From: a virus
Strand: one strand, 5' to 3'
Length of the DNA: 26,350 nucleotides
Virus record (IMG/VR): IMGVR_UViG_3300025000_000384
Location: 1 to 26,350 of that record
Made by a program: the position numbers and the translations under genes
Notes under the pieces: model-generated
Databases searched by the model: none
Told to the model about the DNA's origin: nothing
What the model saw: only the letters and a program-made list of their open reading frames with translations
In this document: positions 858-26,350 of the stretch, in pieces
How positions within the stretch are numbered: position 1 is the stretch's first letter
Layout: every line of letters starts with the position of its first letter

Positions 858-3800
858 ATGGGACTGCTCGACTCGTTACCGGATGAAAAGGGCGGGATGC
901 TGGACTCGTTGCCTGATGAACCTGTTGCCAAGGTCGAAAAGCCGAAACGCTCTCTACTTGGGGAAGCAGGTGCCGGCGTAGCACAAACGACTTTTGGACT
1001 GCCGCAGATGGTGGGCGGAGTAACTAAGCTGGCTGGCGATGCGATAGGTAGTGAGACGGTCAGCGCCTTGGGTAAAGACGCTATAAACTATTGGGGCGAC
1101 AAAATGAAGCCCTACGCAGCGGAAGTACCGTCATTCACCGATATTGAAGACGCGGGAGACGCTGCGAAATACGTTGCTCATGGGGTGGGTGCGCTCGTCC
1201 CGACTGTCGCTGCGTCAGTCGTTTCAGGTGGTATCGGTGCCGGCCTTGCAAAAGAAGGTGTGAAGCGCGCTATTGCAAAGGAGATTGTTAAACGCGAACT
1301 CAAGCACGAAGCCGTTGACCTCATGGCGAAAGGTGCCGTCAAGGAGACTGTAAAGAAAGCCGTTACCAGGGGAGCAATAGCCGGAGCCGGCGCTGCGAGT
1401 TACGGCATGGAAGCAGGGAGTATCTACACAGATCAAGCCGAACAGGGCATTAAGAAACCGTTGAGGGCGGCGTTGACGGCGGTTCCTGCGGCGGCACTCG
1501 ATGTCATCCCTGAGTTAAGACTTCTGTCGAAGATCCCTGCGTTCAAAGTCTTACAGGAGATCCCCTTCTTCAAGACTGCCGAAGGGCGTAATGCCCTTGT
1601 CAGGGGGGGAAAGGAAGCTCTCAAGCAAGGCGGGGCGGAAGGCGTTACCGAATTTGCTCAGACGCTTATTGAGCGGTACGGTGCCGACAAGGAAGCGTTC
1701 TCGAAAGAAGGTCTGTTGGAAGCGGCGAACGCTGGCATCCTTGGGGGGATTGGTGGCGGCATGATGGGTGGCGTTGCTGGTTCAGTGCAGAAACCGGCGA
1801 CTGATACGAATCTGCTCAATGAGAACTCCGAAGAAACCAGCGACATCGCTCAAGAGATCCTGCGAGTCAGAAATCAGCCGGCTGTGCCAAGCGTACAGAC
1901 CGTAACAGAGCCGCCAGCAATGGCGGTTCCAGCCTACGAAGGCCCGGTAATGGACGCCGAAGCACCGACTCCTGAAGACCTGGAACTTCAGGCAATGCAA
2001 CGAGAGAATGAGAACTACCGTCAGCAGCAGTTGATGGACAAGCAGGACATCCCGACTGTCGAAGAGAAGTCCGTTCCGCAAGTCCCTTCGTCATTCAAGA
2101 CGGCAGACGGTAAAGTTTCAGTAAAGACAAAGGCCGTTGGTGAAGGCGTCTTTCAGGTCGAGACGACAAACATTGACGAGTACGGTCACAAGAAGACGTT
2201 TGTTCAAGAGATGAACGCGGAAGATGCGGTCAAGCACATCGACAACGTAACGCCTCCTGTAACGAGGGATCAATATCTTCAGGTCAAAGGAGTCAACGAT
2301 GAAGCAATGTCCGAAGTGCAGTCATCAAATGCTGAAGGCAACCAAGAAGTGTCCGAAGTGCGGGATGAAAGCGTAGGGTTCGATGAATATCTCAAGACTC
2401 CTGAAGGGGTCAACGAGTACCTGAAAAAAACCAAGGGCGTTACTGGACCAGCGAAAAAGATGGTCATGGACCGGTGGCGCAAGGAGTATGAAAATGATAG
2501 TCCAGAAACCGGAGGGGTGGTACGTCCAATCGGAGAAGGGGCGCAACCTGGGGGGGCCGTATCAGACACAGCAGCAAGCGCACTCCCGACAAGCGAAGGT
2601 GGAGGAATGCTGTCTGAGGGACAGACCGTCGAAACCGCGTCCTCCAAAGAAAGTAAAGCAAGTGATGAAGCGTCCAAAACGGCTCCCAAAGTAGTCATCA
2701 AGTCTTTATCCGACCTTCCCCCTGGACAACATGAGATAAAAGGCGCAGGGACGTTCCTCGTTGACGAGAAGGGGAGAGTAAAGATTCTTCGCGGGACTAA
2801 ACTTGAGTCAGTCGATCCGATGCGACGTAAGCTGGCAATCGACAAGTACAACGGGATGGTTCTCGCGGGAAAGCAGAAGGCGAATCGTGAAGCGTTGAAA
2901 GTCGGCAAGACGAAACAGAAAGCGATGGCAGAGGAAGCGCGGGGCATTGCGGAAGACGATGCTCCCTTTCTTCGTGCCGCTTTACAGAACGTCAAGGATG
3001 CCGACTTTGGCAAGATCAGCGTCGATGGCAACGAGACTGAAGCAACCTGGTCAACCTTTGGCGCATTGATTCCGTATATCAGAGGGATGGGTTTCAGCAA
3101 GGCCGATGCAGTGAAGATCATGGCGGAAGCGGTCGAGACGGGTAAACTCCCTCCTGAGAAGAATAAGGCGGAGAGAAGTTTGGTGGAGTCTGCGCTGAAG
3201 CATGAAAAGGAACGCATCGAGGAAGCGGAGAATCGCGTTGAGACTGAGGACGAGAGGCTTGCAAAAGCAGAGAGGGAGGCGATAGAGAACGAGGGCGGGG
3301 ATACGAGTTTTGACTTTTCGGACGATGAAGCAGCGGAGAACAACAAAGTATCTCAACGTTTAGAGGAAGCCAGATCATTCAAACATCGCAACAAATCCTA
3401 CGACGACATGATTGAGTACGGGGAGAAAGCAGATGGTGGCAAGGATGGTTTCTATTCTGAACTGTTCAAGTACGCCTTCAAGACTGCGAAGAGTTTTAAC
3501 GCGGTAATGACTGCCCAAAACGGCAATCCGGTGGGCGTAGAATATCAGGACTCCAAGGGTGAACGTTATGCGTATATCGCACCTGAACCGGGAGAAAAAG
3601 GCAAGTACCGCATCCAGTATTTTGATAAGGGTGGGTTTTCTTCTCATGCAGTGGAAAAAGATTTACCTACGGCTGTTACTGAACTGGTCAGGCAAGGCTT
3701 TACTACTGAGGCTAAAGAATCTCTTGACAAGGTAAGCGGCACTCTTGAATTTCAGCGGGGTAATGAGGTGTCTGCGCTAATTGGCAAACTGAATCGCGGG

Positions 3801-6800
3801 GAAATTGACCACGCCGAATTTGCCAAAAGGCGCGAAGCTATATACGAAGAACCGGCAGAGTCTACGCCCTTGATGGAAGGCGATCAATCCAAACTCTTCC
3901 CCACTCCCCCGACCTTTGGCAAGAAACCGCAAGGGACAGGAACCGTCGCTGAAACGCCGATGCTCACGGAAATGAAGGAGCGGGAAGCGGAGTCGAAGCA
4001 GACCTCCATGACCCTCGACATGCTTGGAATGCAGCAGATTTACGAATCGTTGACCGATGGGGTGATGAAGGAGCACGCGACAACCGCTTTGGATAAAGTC
4101 CGTAACACTCTCGACAATCCCGGTGGCCTTGGGACTCTTGGGAATTGGAAGCAATACCTGGCGAAGCGTTACAAGACTTTAGGGATGTTATCAGGCATCA
4201 AGGACTTCACGCATCAGATAACGAAGACCTTTGGTAAAGCCTCTGAGAATGACCGCAAGGCTATCTTTGAGTTTCTGACTGATAAACAGGGCGATGCGTC
4301 AACCATCTCTCCTGCTCTCAGAGAAGAGTCGATCAAGATGAAGCAGATGATCGAGGACATCGGGGATAAGCTCGTCGCTTATGGACTTATCACTCAAAAG
4401 GTCATGGACGAGCACCGGGGCGAATATCTCCCGACCGTCTACCTGAAACACATCCTGGGTAAAGAGGGTTTTCAGGCGATGGGTTCCGGAAAGAAACTCG
4501 ACCTGACCTACACGAAAAAGAAGTACCTCCGAAAGTCTCTCAAGGAACAAGGTCTGACTGAAGAAGAGATCGATCTGTTTATGAGAACGCAGATGGGGGA
4601 GATCAAAGACCCGGCCTATCTCTTGGCGAGAGCGTTTTCCATCCCTTCAAGAGACATGGCAATCATTGACTGGCTGGCGGAAATCGCTACGCATAGCGAA
4701 TGGGTAATGCCGAAGTCTCTTATCGAGTGGACGCATTCCGAAAACCCGGTAAGGAGATCAGGACGTGTCGAGTACAAGAAAAACGCTGACGGTTCCTTCG
4801 ACCTGAAGATTCACAAGACGAAGATGGTCGAGACGAAACACACTGTAACGGCTTCTGCTCTAGGGAAACTTATCGGTAGTGATAAGATTGCTGACTACAT
4901 TAAGGCCGGCAAGGGAAAGCAGCAGACGCGCAAGGATGAGGTAAAGGGAAAGGTCGTGTATAAAGCGACTCCCTGGAAGAAGGTGGGGCATATCCAGTAC
5001 AAGCTCAATCCTGACGGGACGTTTACCCTGAAGATCAAGGAGAAAGTAACTTCTGTTGATGAGTTGAGCGGTGTCAAAGATTTCAAGGGTCTGGTAGGAG
5101 AAAAGAAAGCCGATCAGATTCTTAACGACGAAGGGAAGGCGTTAGGGGGAAGGAAGGTCACTCCGTTCTGGCTGGCGGCGGAAGCGAAACGAATTAGGGA
5201 GATGATTCCGCATCTTCCCGAAGCGGATAGGGCGGAAGCGAAGGCAGTTGCAGACCGGATGCAAAGACTCTCCGACGAAGCAGACGTAAGCGGCAAACTC
5301 CCCGACGATTACCGGCAGATGCCCGACTCTGCGAAGTACGGCGCTCTGAGAGGTCTGGTAGTCCGGAAGGAGATTTACAGCGACCTGGTGGGCAACATCA
5401 ACATCTCCATCGGTGAGAAGTCTCTGCCTGAAGAATGGCTTGGGACGGGCGGCAAGATCACAAAACTTACCGGCATGTGGAAATGGGCTAAGGTCGCGGC
5501 CAACCCTCCGGCACAGGTGAGGAACTTCGTTTCCAACCTCGTCCTTCTCAACCTGTCGGGAATCCCGGTGTATCGAGTTCCGATCAGGATGGCGCAAGCC
5601 GTCAAGGAAATCAGGTCAAACGGCAAGCACTGGCAAGTCGCTAAGAAGTACGGTGTCAAGGAAGCGACATTCTCAAATACTGAGTTGGCGCGAATTGAAA
5701 CAGCCCTTATGGAGATGGCGAACAGAGACTACGGGTTTGCGCGTGGCATGAAGAAACTTGCTTCTTCTCTGGCGGCTCTTGATATGAAGGGGGCTAAAGA
5801 AGGTGCAGGCGCTGCGTTTAACCCGGTGAAACTTGCCGGGGCGAAGGTAGTCAACCTGACTGGTGATGCGTATCAATTCATGGAGGCGATGGGCAAGACG
5901 GCAAAGATTATTGATGAGATGGAGAACGGCAAGTCGGGTGAAGCGGCGGCAATGGAAGCTCACAAATGGCTCTTCGATTACTCGCTTGTCTCCCCTGGTG
6001 TCAAGTATCTCCGGAATGCGCCGATAGGCATACCCTTTATCACGTTCATGACGAAAGTCCTGCCTCGGCTCACTGAGGTTGCCGTCACAAAGCCCTGGCG
6101 CTTCACCCCATACGTTGCTATAGCCTGGGGAATGCAAGCGGCTGTAGCGGGAATGCTGGACGTTGACGACGAAGATCTTGACAAGCTGAGGGAAGCGTTG
6201 CCGGAATGGATCAGGGAAAAGCAGCATGTCTATTTCCTTCCTTTTAAAGACGACGCCGGCAGATGGCAGGTAGTAGACTTGGGTTACTTCTTTCCGTGGA
6301 CGCAGTGGACTACGTTTGTTGAAGATGTTGGGGAAGGCGACTTATGGAAAGCGATGCGAGGGTCCGGAATCCTGGGCGGTCCTCTCCCTGATTTGATCGT
6401 CGCCTTAAAGACCAACGTCGATCCCTTTACGCAACGGCCTATCATCGACAAGTACGCCGACCCTGCTGAAAAGGCTGCTCAGATGTTCGGTTATCTCTAC
6501 CAGATGGCAATGCCCCCCTGGTTGACGCAGCGAGGGACGGCGGGAAAACTGTACTCTGCCCTATCGGAGAACGTGGACAAATTCGGACTACCGAAAGCAA
6601 CCGTGAAACAGGCGGGTCTTTCAATGGCCGGCATCAACCTCTCTGGCTTTGACCCTGCCTTGACGAGAGGGCAGAACCTCAAGAGGATGGACTTTGAAAT
6701 CAGCGAAGTGCAGAGACAGGCGAAGAGTGAGTTGCAGAACAAGAATCTTTCCGACTCCGAACGCGAAGAGATAAGAGAGAAGTTCAAGAAACGCATCCAG

Positions 6801-6883: not shown

Positions 6884-7282
6884 ATGAAGAAGTTGCTCAT
6901 TGTATTCGCGCTGTTGTTTGCTGTGGAGGCTCATGCAACCGGACTATCCAAGGTGAGTTTCCAACCGTATTCATCGCAGACACAAGTAACCTGTGTGGTC
7001 TATGGGATGGAGAAGTTACTGTTCACCGATCAGAACGGTTCGCATCCGTCGCAGTCGTTTGTGCTTGATCCTGATTTCAGAAGGTCGTTGAACTTGGGAA
7101 CGAAGACGATGGCTAACTACTCGACAACGCTTGGCGGGAAAAAGGTCAGGTACATCAAATATACCTGTACACAGACGGGAACGAATACGACTGTATCGGT
7201 AAAGCTCGGAGTGAACGGGTCAACAGCGATTCCTCTGACGCTGGATGAGGCGACGTTTGCGCTGAAAGAATCGGCTAACTAA
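6884..7282 (+). CDS. Small secreted protein, unknown function
   Basis: 132 residues with a strong aaaggagag ribosome binding site eight bases before ATG. The N-terminus is a textbook Sec signal peptide: MKK, a Leu/Val/Phe/Ala core, and a likely AHA|T cleavage site after residue 18. The mature part is Ser/Thr-rich, beta-strand-like, and has exactly two cysteines (37 and 95) that could form a disulfide in the periplasm. The gene lies between the giant virion-type gene and the beta-helix gene, with only 11 bases to the former. I do not recognise the family. A signal peptide is unusual for a virion component, which hints at export to the host periplasm or surface. Confidence 0.8.
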   Translation: MKKLLIVFALLFAVEAHATGLSKVSFQPYSSQTQVTCVVYGMEKLLFTDQNGSHPSQSFVLDPDFRRSLNLGTKTMANYSTTLGGKKVRYIKYTCTQTGTNTTVSVKLGVNGSTAIPLTLDEATFALKESAN

Positions 7283-7294
7283 GTGGAGGTGGTT

Positions 7295-11490: not shown

Positions 11491-11860
11491 TTGCTACCTC
11501 CTTTGATTGTGTTGCAAATAACACTGCTTTTCTTAAATGGTCAGGGCATTGAGCAAGTTTGTAATAATGGCAACTCACGGTGCATGGTCTTGCTTTGCAG
11601 TAAAGTGGTTGCATCAACGGTATCCATCTTGAACAGGCCGGCGAACTCATGCGAATATCAGTGCCATAACTGTTAGTCCAATCCTTTTGGCGTAATTGGC
11701 ATTTCCAGTGAACCTGACCTGACCGCATTTCGTTGGAGTGCTTGTGCTTGCACGTCTTGCAACACTCTAGTTTCGGCCCACTGCCGGGACGTGCCGCGTA
11801 ACCATTTGCCTTGTACTTTACTTTTCTGGTTGGCGCGTTGCCAAAAAGATCGGTGTCCAT
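11480..11860 (-). CDS. Cys-rich zinc-ribbon-like phage protein with C-terminal extension
   Basis: 126 residues. The N-terminal 80 (GYAARPGSGPKLECCKTCKH ... KCQLRQKDWT ... GTDIRMSSPACSRW) match a common small phage family of the form GxCxxCxH ... YxKCxLxxxxWTxGxGTDIRxxxPACxxW, with metal-ligand cysteines at C34/C37, C54 and the PAC cysteine. The remaining 45 or so residues (YCKARPCTVSCHYYKLAQCP then DHLRKAVLFATQ) add another Cys cluster I do not know. The ATG at 11860 lacks a Shine-Dalgarno site. It lies 9 bases after the stop of the repeat gene and in the same frame, and 2 bases after the stop of a second repeat frame, so translation probably depends on re-initiation. Confidence 0.75.
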   Translation of the reverse strand: MDTDLFGNAPTRKVKYKANGYAARPGSGPKLECCKTCKHKHSNEMRSGQVHWKCQLRQKDWTNSYGTDIRMSSPACSRWIPLMQPLYCKARPCTVSCHYYKLAQCPDHLRKAVLFATQSKEVANAM

Positions 11861-11869
11861 GGTCAGTGA

Positions 11870-12190
11870 TTAGCCATAGCCATAGCCATTGCCATCGCCA
11901 TCGCCATTGCCATAGCCATAGCCATCGCCATAGCCATTGCCATTGCCATTGCCATCGCCATTGCCATCGCCATTGCCATTGCCATTGCCATTGCCATAGC
12001 CATTGCCATCGCCATCGCCATTGCCATAGCCATAGCCATCGCCATCGCCATAGCCATCGCCATTGCCATAGCCATCGCCATAGCCATCGCCATTGCCATA
12101 GCCATCGCCATTGCCATCGCCATTGCCATAGCCATTGCCATAGCCATAAGACGCTTGGCTGTTTTCCCCTATGAAAGTTTCCCTGTCCAT
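11870..12190 (-). CDS. (Y/N/D)-Gly dipeptide-repeat protein, 106 aa
   Basis: An AAGGAGG site four bases before ATG fixes the start, so this is a genuine translation signal and not just an open repeat frame. Fourteen unique residues (MDRETFIGENSQAS) are followed by 46 dipeptides, each Gly preceded by Tyr (15), Asn (17) or Asp (14), to the stop. Every Gly is GGC, and every variable codon is TAT, AAT or GAT, so only codon position 1 changes. Such a chain should be disordered or condensate-like, with Tyr stickers and Asn/Asp/Gly spacers. No family is recognised. It overlaps the upstream gene by 22 bases and is followed in frame, after one stop and three codons, by the Cys-rich gene. Confidence 0.7.
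   Translation of the reverse strand: MDRETFIGENSQASYGYGNGYGNGDGNGDGYGNGDGYGDGYGNGDGYGDGDGYGYGNGDGDGNGYGNGNGNGNGDGNGDGNGNGNGYGDGYGYGNGDGDGNGYGYG
11873..12148 (-). repeat. 46-copy NATGGC hexanucleotide tandem repeat (N = T, A or G)
   Basis: 276 bases made only of the minus-strand hexamer NATGGC (plus strand GCCATN). Five of six positions are invariant in all 46 copies; the first is T 15 times, A 17 times, G 14 times and never C. Longer sub-patterns recur: the unit order YNDYD twice in a row (units 9-18), and YYNDDNY at units 20-26 and 39-45. This implies segmental duplication by unequal exchange. All three minus frames and one plus frame (His-Ser/Cys/Arg) are open through it, a consequence of the repeat. 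Confidence 0.97.
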
Positions 12191-12510
12191 TTATCCTCCT
12201 TGCAACTGATGTGCATTATGGCTGTAAGCGGGTGGTATTCGATAGGAGGGCATTTGTCCAATACGGTTTTTGAGGTAGGACCGCCCTCGGCTATTTCGCC
12301 AAGCCCTTTCGTTGTTCCCCATACCCTGATGTGCGCGGCGTTTTGCAGCAAGTAGTCACCTGTGGGCAGGACTGAACGATTGCCGATTGCGACGAACCCG
12401 CGTTGAAGAACAACAATAAAAAGATCTCCGTGTATCTCGTTGCGGGTTGTAACGCTGTCTTCTCTAATGTAGGTAATATCATCGATTTTGATTGTTTCGG
12501 GTTTATTCAT
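12169..12510 (-). CDS. Conserved phage protein (WGTTKGLGE family; DUF6948-like architecture)
   Basis: 113 residues, with an AGGAGG site and ATG at 12510. The sequence has a beta-rich N-terminus (IKIDDITYIREDSV, GDLFIVVLQRGFVAIGNRS), then LQNAAHIRVWGTTKGLGEIA, GPTSKTVLDKCP and a C-terminal MHISCKEDKW. This order (IVxLxRGxVxVG, NAxxIRxWGTxKGLGELA, GPTxxTxLDxC, VxAVIxCxE.W) is one I recognise from many phage early regions. It resembles DUF6948-type proteins, but I cannot confirm the assignment. Function unknown. It overlaps the start of the repeat gene by 22 bases. Confidence 0.82.
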   Translation of the reverse strand: MNKPETIKIDDITYIREDSVTTRNEIHGDLFIVVLQRGFVAIGNRSVLPTGDYLLQNAAHIRVWGTTKGLGEIAEGGPTSKTVLDKCPPIEYHPLTAIMHISCKEDKWTGKLS

Positions 12511-20600: not shown

Positions 20601-20619
20601 AACGTGACCGGCTAATTGG
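20599..20619 (+). repeat. 21-bp exact direct repeat, copy 1
   Basis: Contains CGTGACCGGCTAATTGG, preceded by AAAA; identical to 22347-22367. It starts on the last bases of the upstream stop codon and ends just before the ribosome binding site of the next gene. No similarity continues on either side. Confidence 0.95.
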
Positions 20620-20627
20620 GGGGAGAT

Positions 20628-20816
20628 ATGAGTCAACAGGACTTGATTGAAATGTGCAACACCGCAATAACTGAAGGCCGTCGCCTGGAATTGCGTCTCA
20701 AAAAAGATCCGCCGGCTGATATGCCGAAAGGATTTTTGATCGAAGAGGATAAAGGGAAAGGTAGGCTGTACGAATTTAACCCCTGGAAGGTTAAGGCGTG
20801 GGCAATGGGGAAATGA
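20628..20816 (+). CDS. Hypothetical protein, 62 aa
   Basis: The ATG at 20628 has a GGGGGGAG site, chosen over an in-frame GTG at 20616 that lies within the 21-bp repeat. The product begins MSQQDLIEMCNTAITEGRRL and ends with LIEEDKGKGRLYEFNPWKVK. It is the last gene of the replication operon, ending one base before the terminator stem. No family recognised. Confidence 0.75.
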   Translation: MSQQDLIEMCNTAITEGRRLELRLKKDPPADMPKGFLIEEDKGKGRLYEFNPWKVKAWAMGK

Positions 20817-20850
20817 AAAAGAGGCCGAGGAATTAACCTCGACCTCTTTT
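20817..20850. terminator. Bidirectional terminator between convergent operons
   Basis: AAAAGAGG-C-CGAGG and CCTCG-A-CCTCTTTT pair over 14 positions with one mismatch around loop AATTAA. The A-run on one side and T-run on the other serve transcripts from both directions. Genes on either side end within three bases of it. Confidence 0.93.
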
Positions 20851-20852
20851 CT

Positions 20853-21014
20853 TTATCTAGCATGACACACGGTACATGGTTGGTATTCTCCGTCCTTGCT
20901 TATCACAATCCCCTCATGCCTTGTTACTTCTTCTGGTGGCTTTACCATAAGCGCGGCAAATATCGCCAGTGCTATCAAACTTCCGATCAGCGTCCTCTTC
21001 TCCCGTCTCTTCAT
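20853..21014 (-). CDS. Mini membrane protein (53 aa) with a C-terminal CXXCH motif
   Basis: AAGGAGGG with a 6-base spacer precedes ATG at 21014. The N-terminus is strongly basic (MKRREKR), followed by one hydrophobic segment (TLIGSLIALAIFAALMV), so the C-terminus should face the periplasm. The exported part is only about 29 residues (EGIVISKDGEYQPCTVCHAR at the end) and holds CTVCH, the covalent haem c attachment motif, three residues from the C-terminus. It could be a membrane-anchored mono-haem peptide, a bait for cytochrome maturation, or a two-Cys/His metal site unrelated to haem. It overlaps the next gene upstream by 101 bases in another frame and ends at the bidirectional terminator. 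Confidence 0.72.
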   Translation of the reverse strand: MKRREKRTLIGSLIALAIFAALMVKPPEEVTRHEGIVISKDGEYQPCTVCHAR

Positions 21015-22346: not shown

Positions 22347-22367
22347 AAAACGTGACCGGCTAATTGG
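22347..22367 (+). repeat. 21-bp exact direct repeat, copy 2
   Basis: Identical to 20599-20619. Here it lies six bases beyond the stop of the minus-strand 103-residue gene, in opposite orientation relative to its neighbouring gene. The two copies bracket the terminator, the six-gene minus-strand operon and its operators (1748 bp apart). Confidence 0.95.
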
Positions 22368-22373
22368 TAAATG

Positions 22374-22685
22374 TCATCGGTCAAGAGTACGGAAACGCTC
22401 GATGTAAACGTCATTTTCTGGAAAATATGCAAGGTCGCCGTTGTCGTGGATTTTCGGTTCAAACAATTCAATGATGGCGCTGTACTTGCTGTATTGTGTC
22501 CAGGTGTCAGCCTCGTTCTTTTCGGATTGGTAAAGGTCTTTTGCTCGGTCAAGATTGTTGATGATGACAAGCTCTTTCCGGCGTACCTCTTCAAACTTTC
22601 CGCCTCTTTTGCGCTCGGTCACGATGCACCGGACTTTGTAAATATGGATACCGGCAAGCCTTAAATGTGCGGCTGTGGCTGTCAT
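22374..22685 (-). CDS. Hypothetical protein, 103 aa
   Basis: AGGAGGGAA precedes ATG at 22685. The product begins MTATAAHLRLAGIHIYKVRC, has a basic stretch (VTERKRGGKFEEVRRKELVI) and ends FPENDVYIERFRTLDR. Alpha/beta composition, no motif I know. It is the last gene of the MoxR/VWA operon and is separated from the VWA gene by a strong two-stem hairpin. Confidence 0.78.
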   Translation of the reverse strand: MTATAAHLRLAGIHIYKVRCIVTERKRGGKFEEVRRKELVIINNLDRAKDLYQSEKNEADTWTQYSKYSAIIELFEPKIHDNGDLAYFPENDVYIERFRTLDR

Positions 22686-22702: not shown

Positions 22703-22756
22703 ATTGATCGCTCTATCGCTTCCCTGTGGCATTCAGGGAAGCTAACAACGATTAAT
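22703..22756 (-). promoter_or_regulatory. Intercistronic two-stem hairpin D
   Basis: Inner stem GCTTCCCTG/CAGGGAAGC (9 bp, 7-nt loop) inside an outer stem of 8 bp with one mismatch (ATTGATCG/CGATTAAT on the plus strand), internal loops 6-7 nt. On the minus transcript it begins at the stop of the VWA gene and ends directly before the AGGAGG of the next gene. Confidence 0.75.
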
Positions 22757-23972
22757 GACCGGGGCGGAGGCGCACTAGCTCCCCGAATGGGGGAGGGCTG
22801 GCTTGATAGCCTCCAAGGTTCACCCATAACACCGGGATTCCTGGGTCGGTTCCGAATGAACTACAACACATATCAGTCAAAACGATGATACATGCCGGGG
22901 GTTCTTCAAGGGTGGCGACGTGTTCAAAGATCGGGGCAAAGTCGGTGCCTCCCCCCCCTTTAGCGGTTAATTTCAGCGGTCGCATATCGGGTGTGATAAC
23001 TTCGGTCTGAGTAATTCGCGTGTCAAAACAAGAGTCAATAACGGTCATGTTGTATTGCCCCATCATATCATCAAGTTCACTGGCGAATTGGTTCTGAAAT
23101 TCATCGGTGTATGTGCTGCCGGATGTATCGCGGTAGGTGGCTGCCGCTCCCATTTCCTGGTTGTAAAGTGAGGGAAGAATAAGACCTCTTGAAAAATAAC
23201 GCGGGTTCGGGCGCTTCCAGGTGTAATCATTTCTCGCGGTGCGGTCGATGAATTGTCTTAAAGCCTCTCGCCAGTCAACGACAGGCTCTAAAAGCTCGTC
23301 AACGTACCGTGCAAGGCTGCCGGGTAGCTTACCTGCCATTTTTGCGGCTTGCGCTGCCTGCTGAGTGGCGATTTTCCAGTCTTGAGCGTTTTGGGCTTTG
23401 TCGCTTTCACTTGCGGCTTGTCCGTCTTTTCCTGGCAAGTCCCTAACTTCGCCACATTTGCCGGGATCGCCTAAATTTGGCTCCTGCGGTCCTTTGCCTT
23501 GTTTCCCTGGTCCGTTGCCTGCTCCGTTTCCCTTCCCCGGTCCTGGGCCTTGCGGTGGCTCTGGGATAAGGTTATAAATTGCTTCCGCTTCCAGGTTTGC
23601 AAAGGCGGGATTGTTAAGGTGGTCTTTGGGTAACTGCATGCCTGCGGTAAGGATCAAAGGGTTTATAGCCATGTCTGCGGCGATATTCCAGCGTTGCGGG
23701 TCGCGTTCTCCCCGTCTGCATTGGTGAGCGTTGGCAAGGTGCATAACTTCGTGGCACAAGACCCCTTTAAGCTGGTCAATGGGCAAAGAATCAACAAAGG
23801 CGGGGCAATAGCCGATTGATACTCCGTCGGTCCACATGGTTCGCTGCTCGGGGTTCGGGATGTACTCCATCGGGTCTTCGATCAACTTGGTTTTGAGGGC
23901 GAGTGAACCAAAAAAGGGCTGGTCAAGAATCAATCCGGCTCTGGCTTTCTGCATTTTCTGTTGTGCTGTCAT
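22752..23972 (-). CDS. VWA-like / putative metallopeptidase-domain protein (CobT-like partner of MoxR)
   Basis: The frame extends to 24215, but AAGGAGGAATT places the start at ATG 23972 (406 aa); the longer version would swallow a hairpin and another small gene. Residues of about 50-85 hold GVLCHEVMHLANAHQCRRGE, an HExxH zinc motif (His74, Glu75, His78) as in the putative metallopeptidase domain found with VWA-like proteins. A Gly/Pro linker follows at 138-170. The VWA-like domain shows the MIDAS motif Asp282-x-Ser284-x-Ser286 (YRDTSGSTYTD), the GGGGTDF turn and VLTDM. It lacks export signals. Families like this act with MoxR AAA+ ATPases in metal insertion or protein remodelling, and a MoxR-type gene is upstream in the same operon. 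Whether it cleaves protein is unknown. Confidence 0.88.
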   Translation of the reverse strand: MTAQQKMQKARAGLILDQPFFGSLALKTKLIEDPMEYIPNPEQRTMWTDGVSIGYCPAFVDSLPIDQLKGVLCHEVMHLANAHQCRRGERDPQRWNIAADMAINPLILTAGMQLPKDHLNNPAFANLEAEAIYNLIPEPPQGPGPGKGNGAGNGPGKQGKGPQEPNLGDPGKCGEVRDLPGKDGQAASESDKAQNAQDWKIATQQAAQAAKMAGKLPGSLARYVDELLEPVVDWREALRQFIDRTARNDYTWKRPNPRYFSRGLILPSLYNQEMGAAATYRDTSGSTYTDEFQNQFASELDDMMGQYNMTVIDSCFDTRITQTEVITPDMRPLKLTAKGGGGTDFAPIFEHVATLEEPPACIIVLTDMCCSSFGTDPGIPVLWVNLGGYQASPPPFGELVRLRPGH

Positions 23973-23989
23973 AATTCCTCCTTTCTGTG

Positions 23990-24041
23990 TTGATTGCTTA
24001 ATGATGCCCCTGAATAGATCAGGAGCACGATAAACAATCAA
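23990..24041 (-). promoter_or_regulatory. Intercistronic two-stem hairpin A
   Basis: On the minus transcript an outer 11-bp stem (UUGAUUGUUUA with UAAGCAAUCAA) encloses an inner 8-bp stem (GCUCCUGA with UCAGGGGC). The only non-Watson-Crick pairs are one G-U in each, which would be C-A mismatches on the other strand. It begins with the stop of the 37-residue gene and ends before the AAGGAGG of the VWA gene. About 50 bases nearly identical to hairpin B. Confidence 0.85.
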
Positions 24042-24151
24042 GCATGTTCTTTGTCTTTTAACTGGCGCTTGAGGTCTTGTATAAGTCGGCGTTGCAAAAT
24101 CACAATAATGTTTGAAAGTATTAAAGCCGTCCAAAGCATCATAGTTTCCAT
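24038..24151 (-). CDS. Tiny membrane protein, 37 aa
   Basis: AAAGGAGGG lies five bases before ATG 24151. The product begins METMMLWTALILSNIIVILQ and ends RRLIQDLKRQLKDKEHA: one membrane helix then an amphipathic, Lys/Arg-rich cytoplasmic tail. Its stop forms the first bases of hairpin A, and hairpin B ends just before its ribosome binding site. Could tether a partner of the VWA/MoxR set to the membrane or be an unrelated small phage membrane protein. Confidence 0.68.
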   Translation of the reverse strand: METMMLWTALILSNIIVILQRRLIQDLKRQLKDKEHA

Positions 24152-24167
24152 CTTGCCCTCCTTTCTG

Positions 24168-24219
24168 TTGATTGCTTAACCATGCCCCTGAACGATTCAG
24201 GAGCACGATAAACAATCAA
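24168..24219 (-). promoter_or_regulatory. Intercistronic two-stem hairpin B
   Basis: Same element as hairpin A: outer 11-bp and inner 8-9-bp stems, with G-U pairs only on the minus transcript. The stop codon of the 77-residue gene lies in its first bases, and the TCCTTTCTG side next to the following ribosome binding site is conserved with copy A as well. Confidence 0.85.
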
Positions 24220-24449
24220 TAATAAATAATCTTCTGCTCTTTCGCCTGTTCGGAGATTTCGGAAGCAAGTTTCCTTGCGGCGTCTCTCCATTTGGTCATA
24301 TCGTCTTTAGCTTCGCCGGGGCTGTAGTACTGTAAGTCTTCGGTTATTATCTGGGCGCTTTCTCTCAAGCATTTATGCAATGCTCTGATTACGTCACATT
24401 GTTGGCCGGGTGATAAATTGGTTACGTCTAAAATGATTTGTTTTTGCAT
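24216..24449 (-). CDS. Hypothetical protein, 77 aa
   Basis: AAAGGGG precedes ATG 24449. The product begins MQKQIILDVTNLSPGQQCDV, then a helical stretch (RALHKCLRESAQIITEDLQY) and a Lys/Glu-rich end. Fully soluble by appearance, no known motif. It lies 12 bases after the DUF3150-like gene and ends within hairpin B. Confidence 0.78.
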   Translation of the reverse strand: MQKQIILDVTNLSPGQQCDVIRALHKCLRESAQIITEDLQYYSPGEAKDDMTKWRDAARKLASEISEQAKEQKIIYY

Positions 24450-24461
24450 GGTAGCCCCTTT

Positions 24462-25319
24462 CTAGGCTGCATTCATCCAGCCTGCCATTTTGTTCATGAT
24501 CTCGGCGCAATCGTCGGCTACGGCCTTGCGGGTCTTCTTGTCGATTCTCAACGTCTCCGGTTCGTATGCCGTCAATCTGGCGGAAACTTCCTTTGTCAGT
24601 CGGTCAAGCTCGGCGTCTCCTGCGATATTCAAGCGGGGTAACAGGTCCACGAGTTCAACGATATTACCAACAAGAGAATCCCTGAAAATAGCATCGGGAG
24701 TGCTCAACCGTTCCGCCATTGCGGAGACTGCGGTATGCAAGCGGCTCCATACGTCTCTCATGGCTGCGTCTTGTGCTTGCTGGCTTCTCGCGTCAAGCTC
24801 GGCCTTTATCCGGTTAACTTCGGCGTCTCCAAGATCAACGCGAAAGTCTGACGCATCGGGCAACGGGTCAACTTGCGTCTCAAAAGAGTATTTACTGATG
24901 ATGTTTTCTGCTGAAGGATAATCAGATTGTACGAACAAAGAATTGAGGCGTATTTTAGCATCCTCGACTAATGCGGGGTACTCGGTCAAAAACTCGCTGA
25001 CTGCTGCCTGGAATGCGGCTTTATGTTTTCGCATCCCTTCCGAGTAGGCGAAAAAATTAGCGGCTGGTAGAATCCGTGCTCCGTCATCGTTCCAGGGAAG
25101 GGTTTGTGTATAGTGGAAAGTTCTGGCGTCTCCTGCTGCGCTCTGGACCTTTTTTAATGCGTTGGTGGCGATAAGGGCTTTATTATACCTTCCGGCGTCG
25201 TTCGAGGTCTGGTATTCCTCTTTTACTTTCGCGGTTGCGGTCTTGTCCAGTTTCCTGGCGCTCCAGATTGAAATTGAGAGTCGGGCAAGCATGGCTTTTT
25301 TGCTGATTACGTGTGTCAT
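24462..25319 (-). CDS. DUF3150-like phage protein associated with MoxR/VWA genes
   Basis: 285 residues, AAGGAG ribosome binding site. The pattern LARLSISIWSARKLDKTATA, SNDAGRYNKALIATNALKKV, FHYTQTLPWNDDGARILPAA, VSEFLTEYPALVEDAKIRLN, DPLPDASDFRVDLGDAEVNR is that of a phage and mobile-element family I associate with DUF3150, usually encoded between a MoxR ATPase and a VWA protein. The second half is mostly helical. Function unknown; conserved linkage suggests a subunit or substrate of the AAA+/VWA machine. The name is a recollection of the family pattern, not a search result. Confidence 0.78.
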   Translation of the reverse strand: MTHVISKKAMLARLSISIWSARKLDKTATAKVKEEYQTSNDAGRYNKALIATNALKKVQSAAGDARTFHYTQTLPWNDDGARILPAANFFAYSEGMRKHKAAFQAAVSEFLTEYPALVEDAKIRLNSLFVQSDYPSAENIISKYSFETQVDPLPDASDFRVDLGDAEVNRIKAELDARSQQAQDAAMRDVWSRLHTAVSAMAERLSTPDAIFRDSLVGNIVELVDLLPRLNIAGDAELDRLTKEVSARLTAYEPETLRIDKKTRKAVADDCAEIMNKMAGWMNAA

Positions 25320-25322
25320 GGT

Positions 25323-25532
25323 TTAATGCTCCTTTCGTTGTCTGCGGTCGTTTCCGCGTGATGTAAAGCACTGGTTAGGGCAAAGGTTGCAAGGTTTCTT
25401 GTCTACAACAAAATACAAGTCAATTAAAAAGTCTGCTCCGCGTGGCGTCTCCATCAGTTTGCAGCCGTGCCTTACGAGGTCTGCTAAATCTGGCTGTGGC
25501 TTGTGCCTCCGTTCCTGTAGTCGTCTAGTCAT
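25323..25532 (-). CDS. Small Cys-containing basic protein, 69 aa
   Basis: AGGAGGGAAAGGAG precedes ATG 25532. The product begins MTRRLQERRHKPQPDLADLV, then GCKLMETPRGADFLIDLYFV, and ends KKPCNLCPNQCFTSRGN plus a basic tail. CNLCPNQC (C48, C51, C55) with C24 may bind a metal. It lies between the MoxR-type and DUF3150-like genes and ends 3 bases before the latter. No family recognised. Confidence 0.72.
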   Translation of the reverse strand: MTRRLQERRHKPQPDLADLVRHGCKLMETPRGADFLIDLYFVVDKKPCNLCPNQCFTSRGNDRRQRKEH

Positions 25533-25583
25533 CTCCTTTCCCTCCTGTAATGAATTACCGTATATCTCTAGGCGGCTGTAACT

Positions 25584-25629
25584 GCTTATCTGAACCGTTA
25601 AGGGTCTTAACGGCTCAATAAACGGTCAA
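25584..25629 (-). promoter_or_regulatory. Intercistronic two-stem hairpin C
   Basis: On the minus transcript, GUUUAU with AUAAGC forms the outer stem and GAGCCGUUAAG with CUUAACGGUUC the 11-bp inner stem (3-nt loop), with G-U pairs again. It shares TTGA--GTTTA and TAAGC with hairpins A and B, starts just after the MoxR stop, and ends about 50 bases before the next ribosome binding site. Confidence 0.7.
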
Positions 25630-25630
25630 G

Positions 25631-26350
25631 CTAGATTAACAGACTGCTATGATTGGCCGCCCACCGGACAAAGCCCCTTGAACTGGTAACGGTCGGGGCG
25701 AGTTTGACCGCGTCACGCATCAAAAGGACCGAAAATTCAGCGGGTAGCCGGTCGCAATATTCCGCAAGCCGATCAATCGTATTATCTGAGGCTTTGCGGC
25801 TCAAAGCACCACAAAGGGCGTAAAGGGTCGCGGGGTCGGTCGGCACTTCTCCTGCCTGGGGATTCATCAGAATCGCGTCGGGGTTCGGGAGGTTGCGACA
25901 GATACGGAGAAAACCTAAAAACTCTGCTGCGAACGCTTCACCGGCTGCGCCTGCAATCACTGGATATTCAAGCTCCTGGGCTATCCCAAGATTTAAGATC
26001 CTGCCGACATTGGCAACGGTTCTAGGGCATGGGCTGTTAAACAAGTCGGGTGATGGCTTAAAGTCGTGCAGCAGATTCGGGCGGAAACGGACAAAACTGA
26101 TTAACTCGGTCGGCATGTTGTTGGACAGCGCCCAATTGCACCATGAGTCAAGATCAGGCTGTAACTCTACGATGGTCGTAAAGCGGGATTTAACAGGCTC
26201 TAAAAGTCCCGATACTCCGGCGCGGTCCTGGCGGCGGTTGGTGGCTCCGATAAAGCAAACGTGGTCGCTGACTTTATGACCGTTCACGCGGCGTGCTAGG
26301 ATGAGTTGCATTGCTGCGGCTTGCGTGGCGGGTGGCGCTTGTCCAAGATC
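25631..26350 (-). CDS. MoxR-type AAA+ ATPase, C-terminal part (gene runs off the window)
   Basis: The frame is open to the right edge, and the residues before the first ATG (DLGQAPPATQAAA) fit the end of a Walker B segment of the MoxR form (L-D-E-L-x-x-A-P-P-x-x-Q-x-A-x-x-x), so the gene is cut by the window, not started at 26311. Next come VSDHVCFIGATNRRQDRAGV (sensor 1 Asn) and LLEPVKSRFTT (arginine finger). The C-terminal lid follows, with long helices and ISFVRFRPNLLHDFKPSPDL. MoxR ATPases work with VWA proteins to remodel or activate others; the VWA partner is 2 kb downstream. The Walker A part lies outside the window. Confidence 0.9.
   Translation of the reverse strand, partial: DLGQAPPATQAAAMQLILARRVNGHKVSDHVCFIGATNRRQDRAGVSGLLEPVKSRFTTIVELQPDLDSWCNWALSNNMPTELISFVRFRPNLLHDFKPSPDLFNSPCPRTVANVGRILNLGIAQELEYPVIAGAAGEAFAAEFLGFLRICRNLPNPDAILMNPQAGEVPTDPATLYALCGALSRKASDNTIDRLAEYCDRLPAEFSVLLMRDAVKLAPTVTSSRGFVRWAANHSSLLI

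Follow-up and report, generated by a model that had tools for sequence, protein, structure and literature searches.

Bacteriophage T7 has 10 RNase III sites (PMC9135205), among them R1.1, a 60-nucleotide (nt) RNA with a 4/5 asymmetric internal loop that lies between genes 1.0 and 1.1 and is cut into products of 47 and 13 nt (PMC6121014). In cluster K mycobacteriophages, the repeated SAS/ESAS element stands upstream of the translation starts of some genes; ESAS comprises an imperfect 17-bp inverted repeat with a 4–13 bp spacer and is tied to the 13-bp start motif GGGATAGGAGCCC, its function being unproven (PMC3203893). Here we analyse a 26.35-kb virus fragment (IMG/VR record IMGVR_UViG_3300025000_000384, positions 1 to 26,350; hereafter the window), in which four hairpins, A to D, occupy the gaps between genes of an operon encoding a MoxR-like AAA+ ATPase and a von Willebrand-type (VWA-like) partner. 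Hairpins of the REP/BOX type likewise lie between genes of one operon and can stabilise the upstream mRNA. A preliminary description of the locus knew of no named element like the four hairpins, which goes too far, since the T7 RNase III signals match them in layout and position and SAS/ESAS is comparably placed. We put the probability at roughly 55% that the hairpins are intercistronic mRNA processing or stability signals working like the T7 'R' sites, with host RNase III cutting the 3' side of their internal loop.

The four hairpins of common architecture named in the preliminary description are all present on the minus strand (Table 1), D having been placed at 25584–25629 and now corrected. 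Each folds far better than shuffled sequence: relative to dinucleotide-shuffled versions of short flanked stretches, sense-strand z-scores were −3.9 (C), −5.5 (A), −6.1 (B) and −6.5 (D), and 0 of 200 shuffles folded as well. Common to A–D is an outer stem of ~10 bp, an asymmetric 3×4 internal loop, an inner stem of 9–10 bp and a loop of 3–7 nt, hairpin A folding as 11 bp, a 2×3 loop and 10 bp. A and B are direct repeats with 89% identity across a 54-nt repeat, and two exact occurrences of the outer-stem pair TTGATTG...CAATCAA compare with an expectation of 0.00. Scanning the gaps of the window returned a hairpin at 3 of 22 same-direction junctions on the minus strand (B, C and D) and at 0 of 7 on the plus strand; the scan used a simple gene caller and missed A because the preceding 37-amino-acid (aa) open reading frame (ORF) falls below the caller's limit. 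No Rfam 15 family scored above its gathering score in the window.

All four hairpins lie on or next to the upstream stop codon, as had been described. In A, B and C the stop is inside the 5' outer arm (the TGA of the 37-aa ORF at 24038–24040, the TGA of a 77-aa ORF at 24216–24218 and the TAA of the VWA gene at 22752–22754, respectively), while the TAG of the MoxR-like ATPase gene (25631–25633) lies 2 nt upstream of D. Downstream, a GGAGG Shine–Dalgarno (SD) sequence follows A after 8 nt (VWA gene), B after 6 nt (37-aa ORF) and C after 4 nt (103-aa ORF). The earlier statement that D, A and B end just before a ribosome-binding site thus holds for A and B, extends to C and fails for D, the odd one in spacing, whose next GGAGG is 33 nt away inside a 98-nt gap. 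Hiding of the SD was tried as a role and rejected: exposure of GGAGG did not change when A, B or C was deleted in silico.

Strong G+C-containing inner stems behind stop codons also invite a reading as intrinsic transcription terminators that attenuate the operon. This is already largely refuted and, in our estimate, extremely improbable: no T-run follows any of A–D, a scan for promoter- and terminator-like signals called none of them, and an internal loop would be unhelpful to a terminator. The great stability of the stems at the stop codon (−23 to −31 kcal/mol) and the absence of a U-tract would equally suit hairpins that are never cut but block 3'–5' exonucleases, stabilising the upstream mRNA after cleavage or decay elsewhere in the manner of REP-type intercistronic stabilisers. 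We consider such uncut protectors unlikely, as a mere roadblock needs neither a conserved internal-loop geometry nor a near-constant size (50–54 nt in close relatives). REP/BOX elements, moreover, are dispersed in a host genome, whereas the hairpins here occur in a single operon of a single phage group and have a conserved internal loop.

The T7 signals offer the closest match in form. We folded the stretches of T7 sequence around the RNase III sites, at what we take to be the site positions, aligned seven of them and counted pairs, which gave an outer stem of 9 bp, a 4×5 internal loop and an inner stem of 10 bp, with 94% of cells paired. R4.7 folds as 10 bp, 3×3–4 and 10 bp in 50 nt, which nearly reproduces the figure of hairpin A. 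At R0.5, R1 and R18.5 the lower stem contains the stop codon, R4.7 has it immediately ahead of that stem, and the gap scan used for the window, applied to T7, recovered R0.5, R4.7 and R18.5 together with four other hits. Like the T7 signals (R0.3, R0.5, R1, R1.1, R1.3, R4.7, R6.5 and R18.5), the hairpins described here are intercistronic, 50–60 nt long and several per genome, with a lower stem of 9–10 bp, an upper stem of 10 bp, a short loop and an internal loop one nucleotide longer on its 3' side; at several sites in both, the stop is within the lower stem or directly precedes it, and the next ribosome-binding site follows downstream, albeit at a distance in the case of D. They differ in their motifs (GUUUAU/UUGUUAG...GAUA here, ACUC-AAGG...CCUU-UAUGAU in T7) and in being almost confined to one operon. 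The likeness is one of architecture and placement, from which a shared job appears likely; we do not claim common descent.

With SAS/ESAS the hairpins share an imperfect inverted repeat shortly upstream of a start, A, B and C lying 4–8 nt before the SD. Whereas ESAS repeats have a within-genome consensus, the stems here vary while the geometry is kept, and the hairpins sit on the upstream stop. The 13-bp start motif was not found in the four gaps on direct reading; GGAGG-type SDs were present.

Comparison with related phages, represented by viral contigs L002–L007 and L139, supports selection on the structure of the sense-strand RNA, with the qualification that the ortholog comparisons rest on few, closely related copies. 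Among the window, L003, L004 and L139, hairpin D has 0–2 differences in 50 positions, whereas third codon positions of MoxR differ by 27–34% (L002, with a different gene there, is left out) and the rest of D's gap by ~8–26%. Hairpin A is identical across 52 nt in the window, L003, L004 and L005, in which VWA third positions differ by 29–43%. Substitutions between orthologous stems preserve or improve pairing: G-U becomes G-C in D of L002, whose remaining two differences are in the terminal loop, U-G becomes U-A in D of L004, and A-C becomes A-U in C of L003.

The imperfect pairs also distinguish the strands, with 29 G-U against 8 A-C cells in the sense RNA. The preliminary description had held that imperfect pairs are G-U only in the sense transcript of A, B and C and the reverse in D; that claim is partly wrong, as D has three sense G-U pairs beside a single C-A mismatch, which reads G-U in the antisense, and C has one of each. 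All four hairpins keep a T/G mismatch at one common pair, which would be unexpected of a DNA palindrome recognised by a protein and so supports selection at the RNA level. Copies in close relatives score 50–58 bits on the sense strand (47 for the type labelled E) and 13–25 on the antisense under a covariance model trained on the same sequences. Orthologous copies, pairing-preserving substitutions, strand-specific G-U pairs and high model scores together sustain the two earlier proposals of RNA-level selection and of a role in stability or processing.

Copies were present in five near relatives, and diverged copies in two contigs at 42% VWA identity. Twelve copies from the window, L002, L003, L004 and L007, mixing several hairpin types, align in nearly all cases in one register, with an outer stem of 10 bp, an internal loop of 3 nt (5') and 4 nt (3'), an inner stem of 10 bp and a loop of at least 5 nt. 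In this alignment 84% of cells are paired, compared with 70% after shuffling and 31–51% with the partner slid. Two-sided changes occur at 11 of its 20 pairs; because the types are mixed, we count these as shared geometry and not as covariation among orthologs. A leave-out model, for which only D and the types of L007 and L004 were used, was run on the window without filters and ranked A (26.1 bits, E-value 0.0018) and B (25.6 bits, E-value 0.0023) directly after D on the sense strand.

The full model found four copies each in the window, L004 and L005 (the latter two being very similar phages), three in L003, two each in L006 and L007 and one each in L002 and L139, with nothing further significant in the contigs of these relatives, up to 69 kb long. 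A weak extra candidate of 12 bits (TTGATTGTT...AGCAACCAAA; plus strand of the L003 contig, 57495–57554, equal to L118 17695–17754) has two stems and lies between genes outside the operon, exactly after a stop and before an SD. Pattern scans of all viral contigs for A-, D- and C-type hairpins returned the same close relatives only, and annotated phages with the operon gave no match in a nucleotide search. The model did not match L140 or L141 (42% DUF3150 identity), and in the annotated MoxR–VWA phages Kc283, JWAlpha, Presley, CRP-7, PA5oct and phiFa the gaps are mostly too tight and no related element was seen.

Other structures were noticed in relatives and in more distant phages. Just before the start of the gene behind VWA, L002 has a near-perfect palindrome (7232–7289) where its relatives have hairpin C. 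In more distant VWA phages, two-stem hairpins with a common GAGCAA 3' arm follow stop codons in L037 (6901–6951), L025 (9045–9095) and L031 (9038–9095); the model does not detect them. L140 has a differently shaped hairpin after the stop of its MoxR-like gene (~3890–3930), and the conserved position may therefore reach beyond the family.

An element repeated within one operon per contig (apart from the one weak candidate), with a common internal-loop motif of UUUAU or UUGUUAG on one side and a GAUA-like sequence on the other, could also serve as a binding site for a phage or host RNA-binding protein that controls the operon, for instance through autoregulation by an operon product. We regard this as distinctly unlikely: the SD sequences downstream of A, B and C are not occluded, the hairpins stay while the adjoining genes change, and no candidate binder was found.

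Hairpin A follows the 37-aa ORF in the window and DUF3150 in L003; in L004 and L005 it follows a related 37-aa ORF, but the next gene differs. Hairpin C is directly behind VWA in the window and L004 and behind an extra ORF in L003. In L002, an ORF judged by eye to be HNH endonuclease-like (~3400–4090) intervenes between MoxR and D, its stop being the TAG that MoxR uses elsewhere. Retention of the hairpins amid varying neighbours indicates that genes are gained or lost immediately 5' of them.

The hairpins might then be read as gene-cassette boundaries in DNA, the copies acting as joints for homologous recombination through which small genes come and go, with any RNA role secondary. The identity of hairpin A beside different genes in four contigs, the 89% identical A/B direct repeats flanking the 37-aa ORF and the unrelated HNH-like ORF before D in L002 fit this picture. 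RNA-level pairing, strand asymmetry and G-U bias would be surprising in a pure DNA joint, each of C and D is a single-copy type, and integron attC sites were rejected, as the paired RYYYAAC/GTTRRRY core boxes are absent (one isolated box in B, and none on either strand of A, C or D); on balance we think the recombination joint very improbable. Another proposal, which we also hold to be unlikely, is a new structured RNA family acting as a 'stop-codon cap': small genes arriving just 5' of a retained hairpin would each be supplied with an existing element for processing or recognition, which a dedicated protein of phage or host, and not ordinary RNase III, might read.

Under T7-like processing, the operon would be transcribed as one message. 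After the ribosome has left the stop within or next to the outer arm, the 50–54-nt element would fold, stacking two helices of roughly one turn each on either side of the asymmetric internal loop. RNase III would cut the 3' side of this loop at the predicted zones listed in Table 1, leaving the upstream mRNA with a protective 3' hairpin and giving the downstream mRNA a new 5' end ahead of its ribosome-binding site. Each gene could thereby acquire its own mRNA half-life and dose, and the likely use would be uneven dosing of the AAA+ ATPase, its VWA partner and the small proteins. No RNase III gene (PF14622) was found in six phage records, as against matches in 8 of 14 control genomes, so the host would have to supply the enzyme. 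RNase III is, to our knowledge, present in nearly all bacteria.

Several observations weigh against this reading. A covariance model of the T7 sites finds R6.5, which was absent from its training, yet scores the hairpins of the window no better than noise, the conserved T7 motifs being absent from them. The sequence rules of RNase III are weak, so many hairpins of such size could be substrates. Hairpin C was marginal in the leave-out model (11.8 bits, E-value 3), which ties it only loosely to the others. N4-like MoxR–VWA phages have tight gaps without such hairpins, so the element is dispensable for operon function.

The minus strand of the window reads as a single operon from 26350 to ~22374 (Table 1). 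On the same strand, the 16-base sequence CAATTAGCCGGTCACG occurs at 20603–20618 and 22351–22366; it has two copies in three relatives and one in L002, always on the operon strand, and in L003 and L004 one copy lies directly before an SD. At 20816–20867 (minus strand) stands a strong, ordinary terminator-like hairpin, AAGAGGTCGAGG...CCTCGGCCTCTTTTT, with a similar structure in relatives. Elsewhere, the window contains a GCCATN hexamer array (minus-strand ATGGCN) of 19–20 register copies at 11819–12207, and other hexamer arrays (GGTCGN, TCTAGG) occur in L004 and L007.

Table 1. Hairpins A–D and genes of the surrounding operon, in window coordinates.
Feature	Position	Strand	3' internal loop (predicted cleavage zone)	Remarks
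Hairpin A	23990–24041	−	24000–24003	52 nt
Hairpin B	24168–24219	−	24178–24181	52 nt
Hairpin C	22703–22756	−	22714–22717	internal loop UUA/GAUA
Hairpin D	25579–25628	−	25588–25591	extending to 25575–25631
MoxR-like AAA+ ATPase gene	25631–26350	−		truncated by window end; PHROG 1297 ATPase, E-value 1.7e-51
69-aa ORF	25323–25532	−		between hairpin D and DUF3150-like gene; no family match
DUF3150-like gene	24462–25319	−		E-value 5.5e-4, under Pfam cut-off
77-aa ORF	24216–24449	−		end falls in hairpin B
37-aa ORF	24038–24151	−		hairpins B and A on either side
DUF2201_N/DUF2201 VWA-like protein gene	22752–23972	−		E-value 1e-58
103-aa ORF	22374–22685	−		downstream of hairpin C; no family match

If the hairpins are processed as proposed, T7-style intergenic hairpin processing would be no peculiarity of T7 but would have arisen or persisted, with different motifs, in phages that are not T7-like, where its main use would be around an AAA+/VWA operon with partners that may be needed in unequal amounts. 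A near-identical element beside different genes would, in addition, offer a case in which gene gain at a retained site of RNA processing can be tested.

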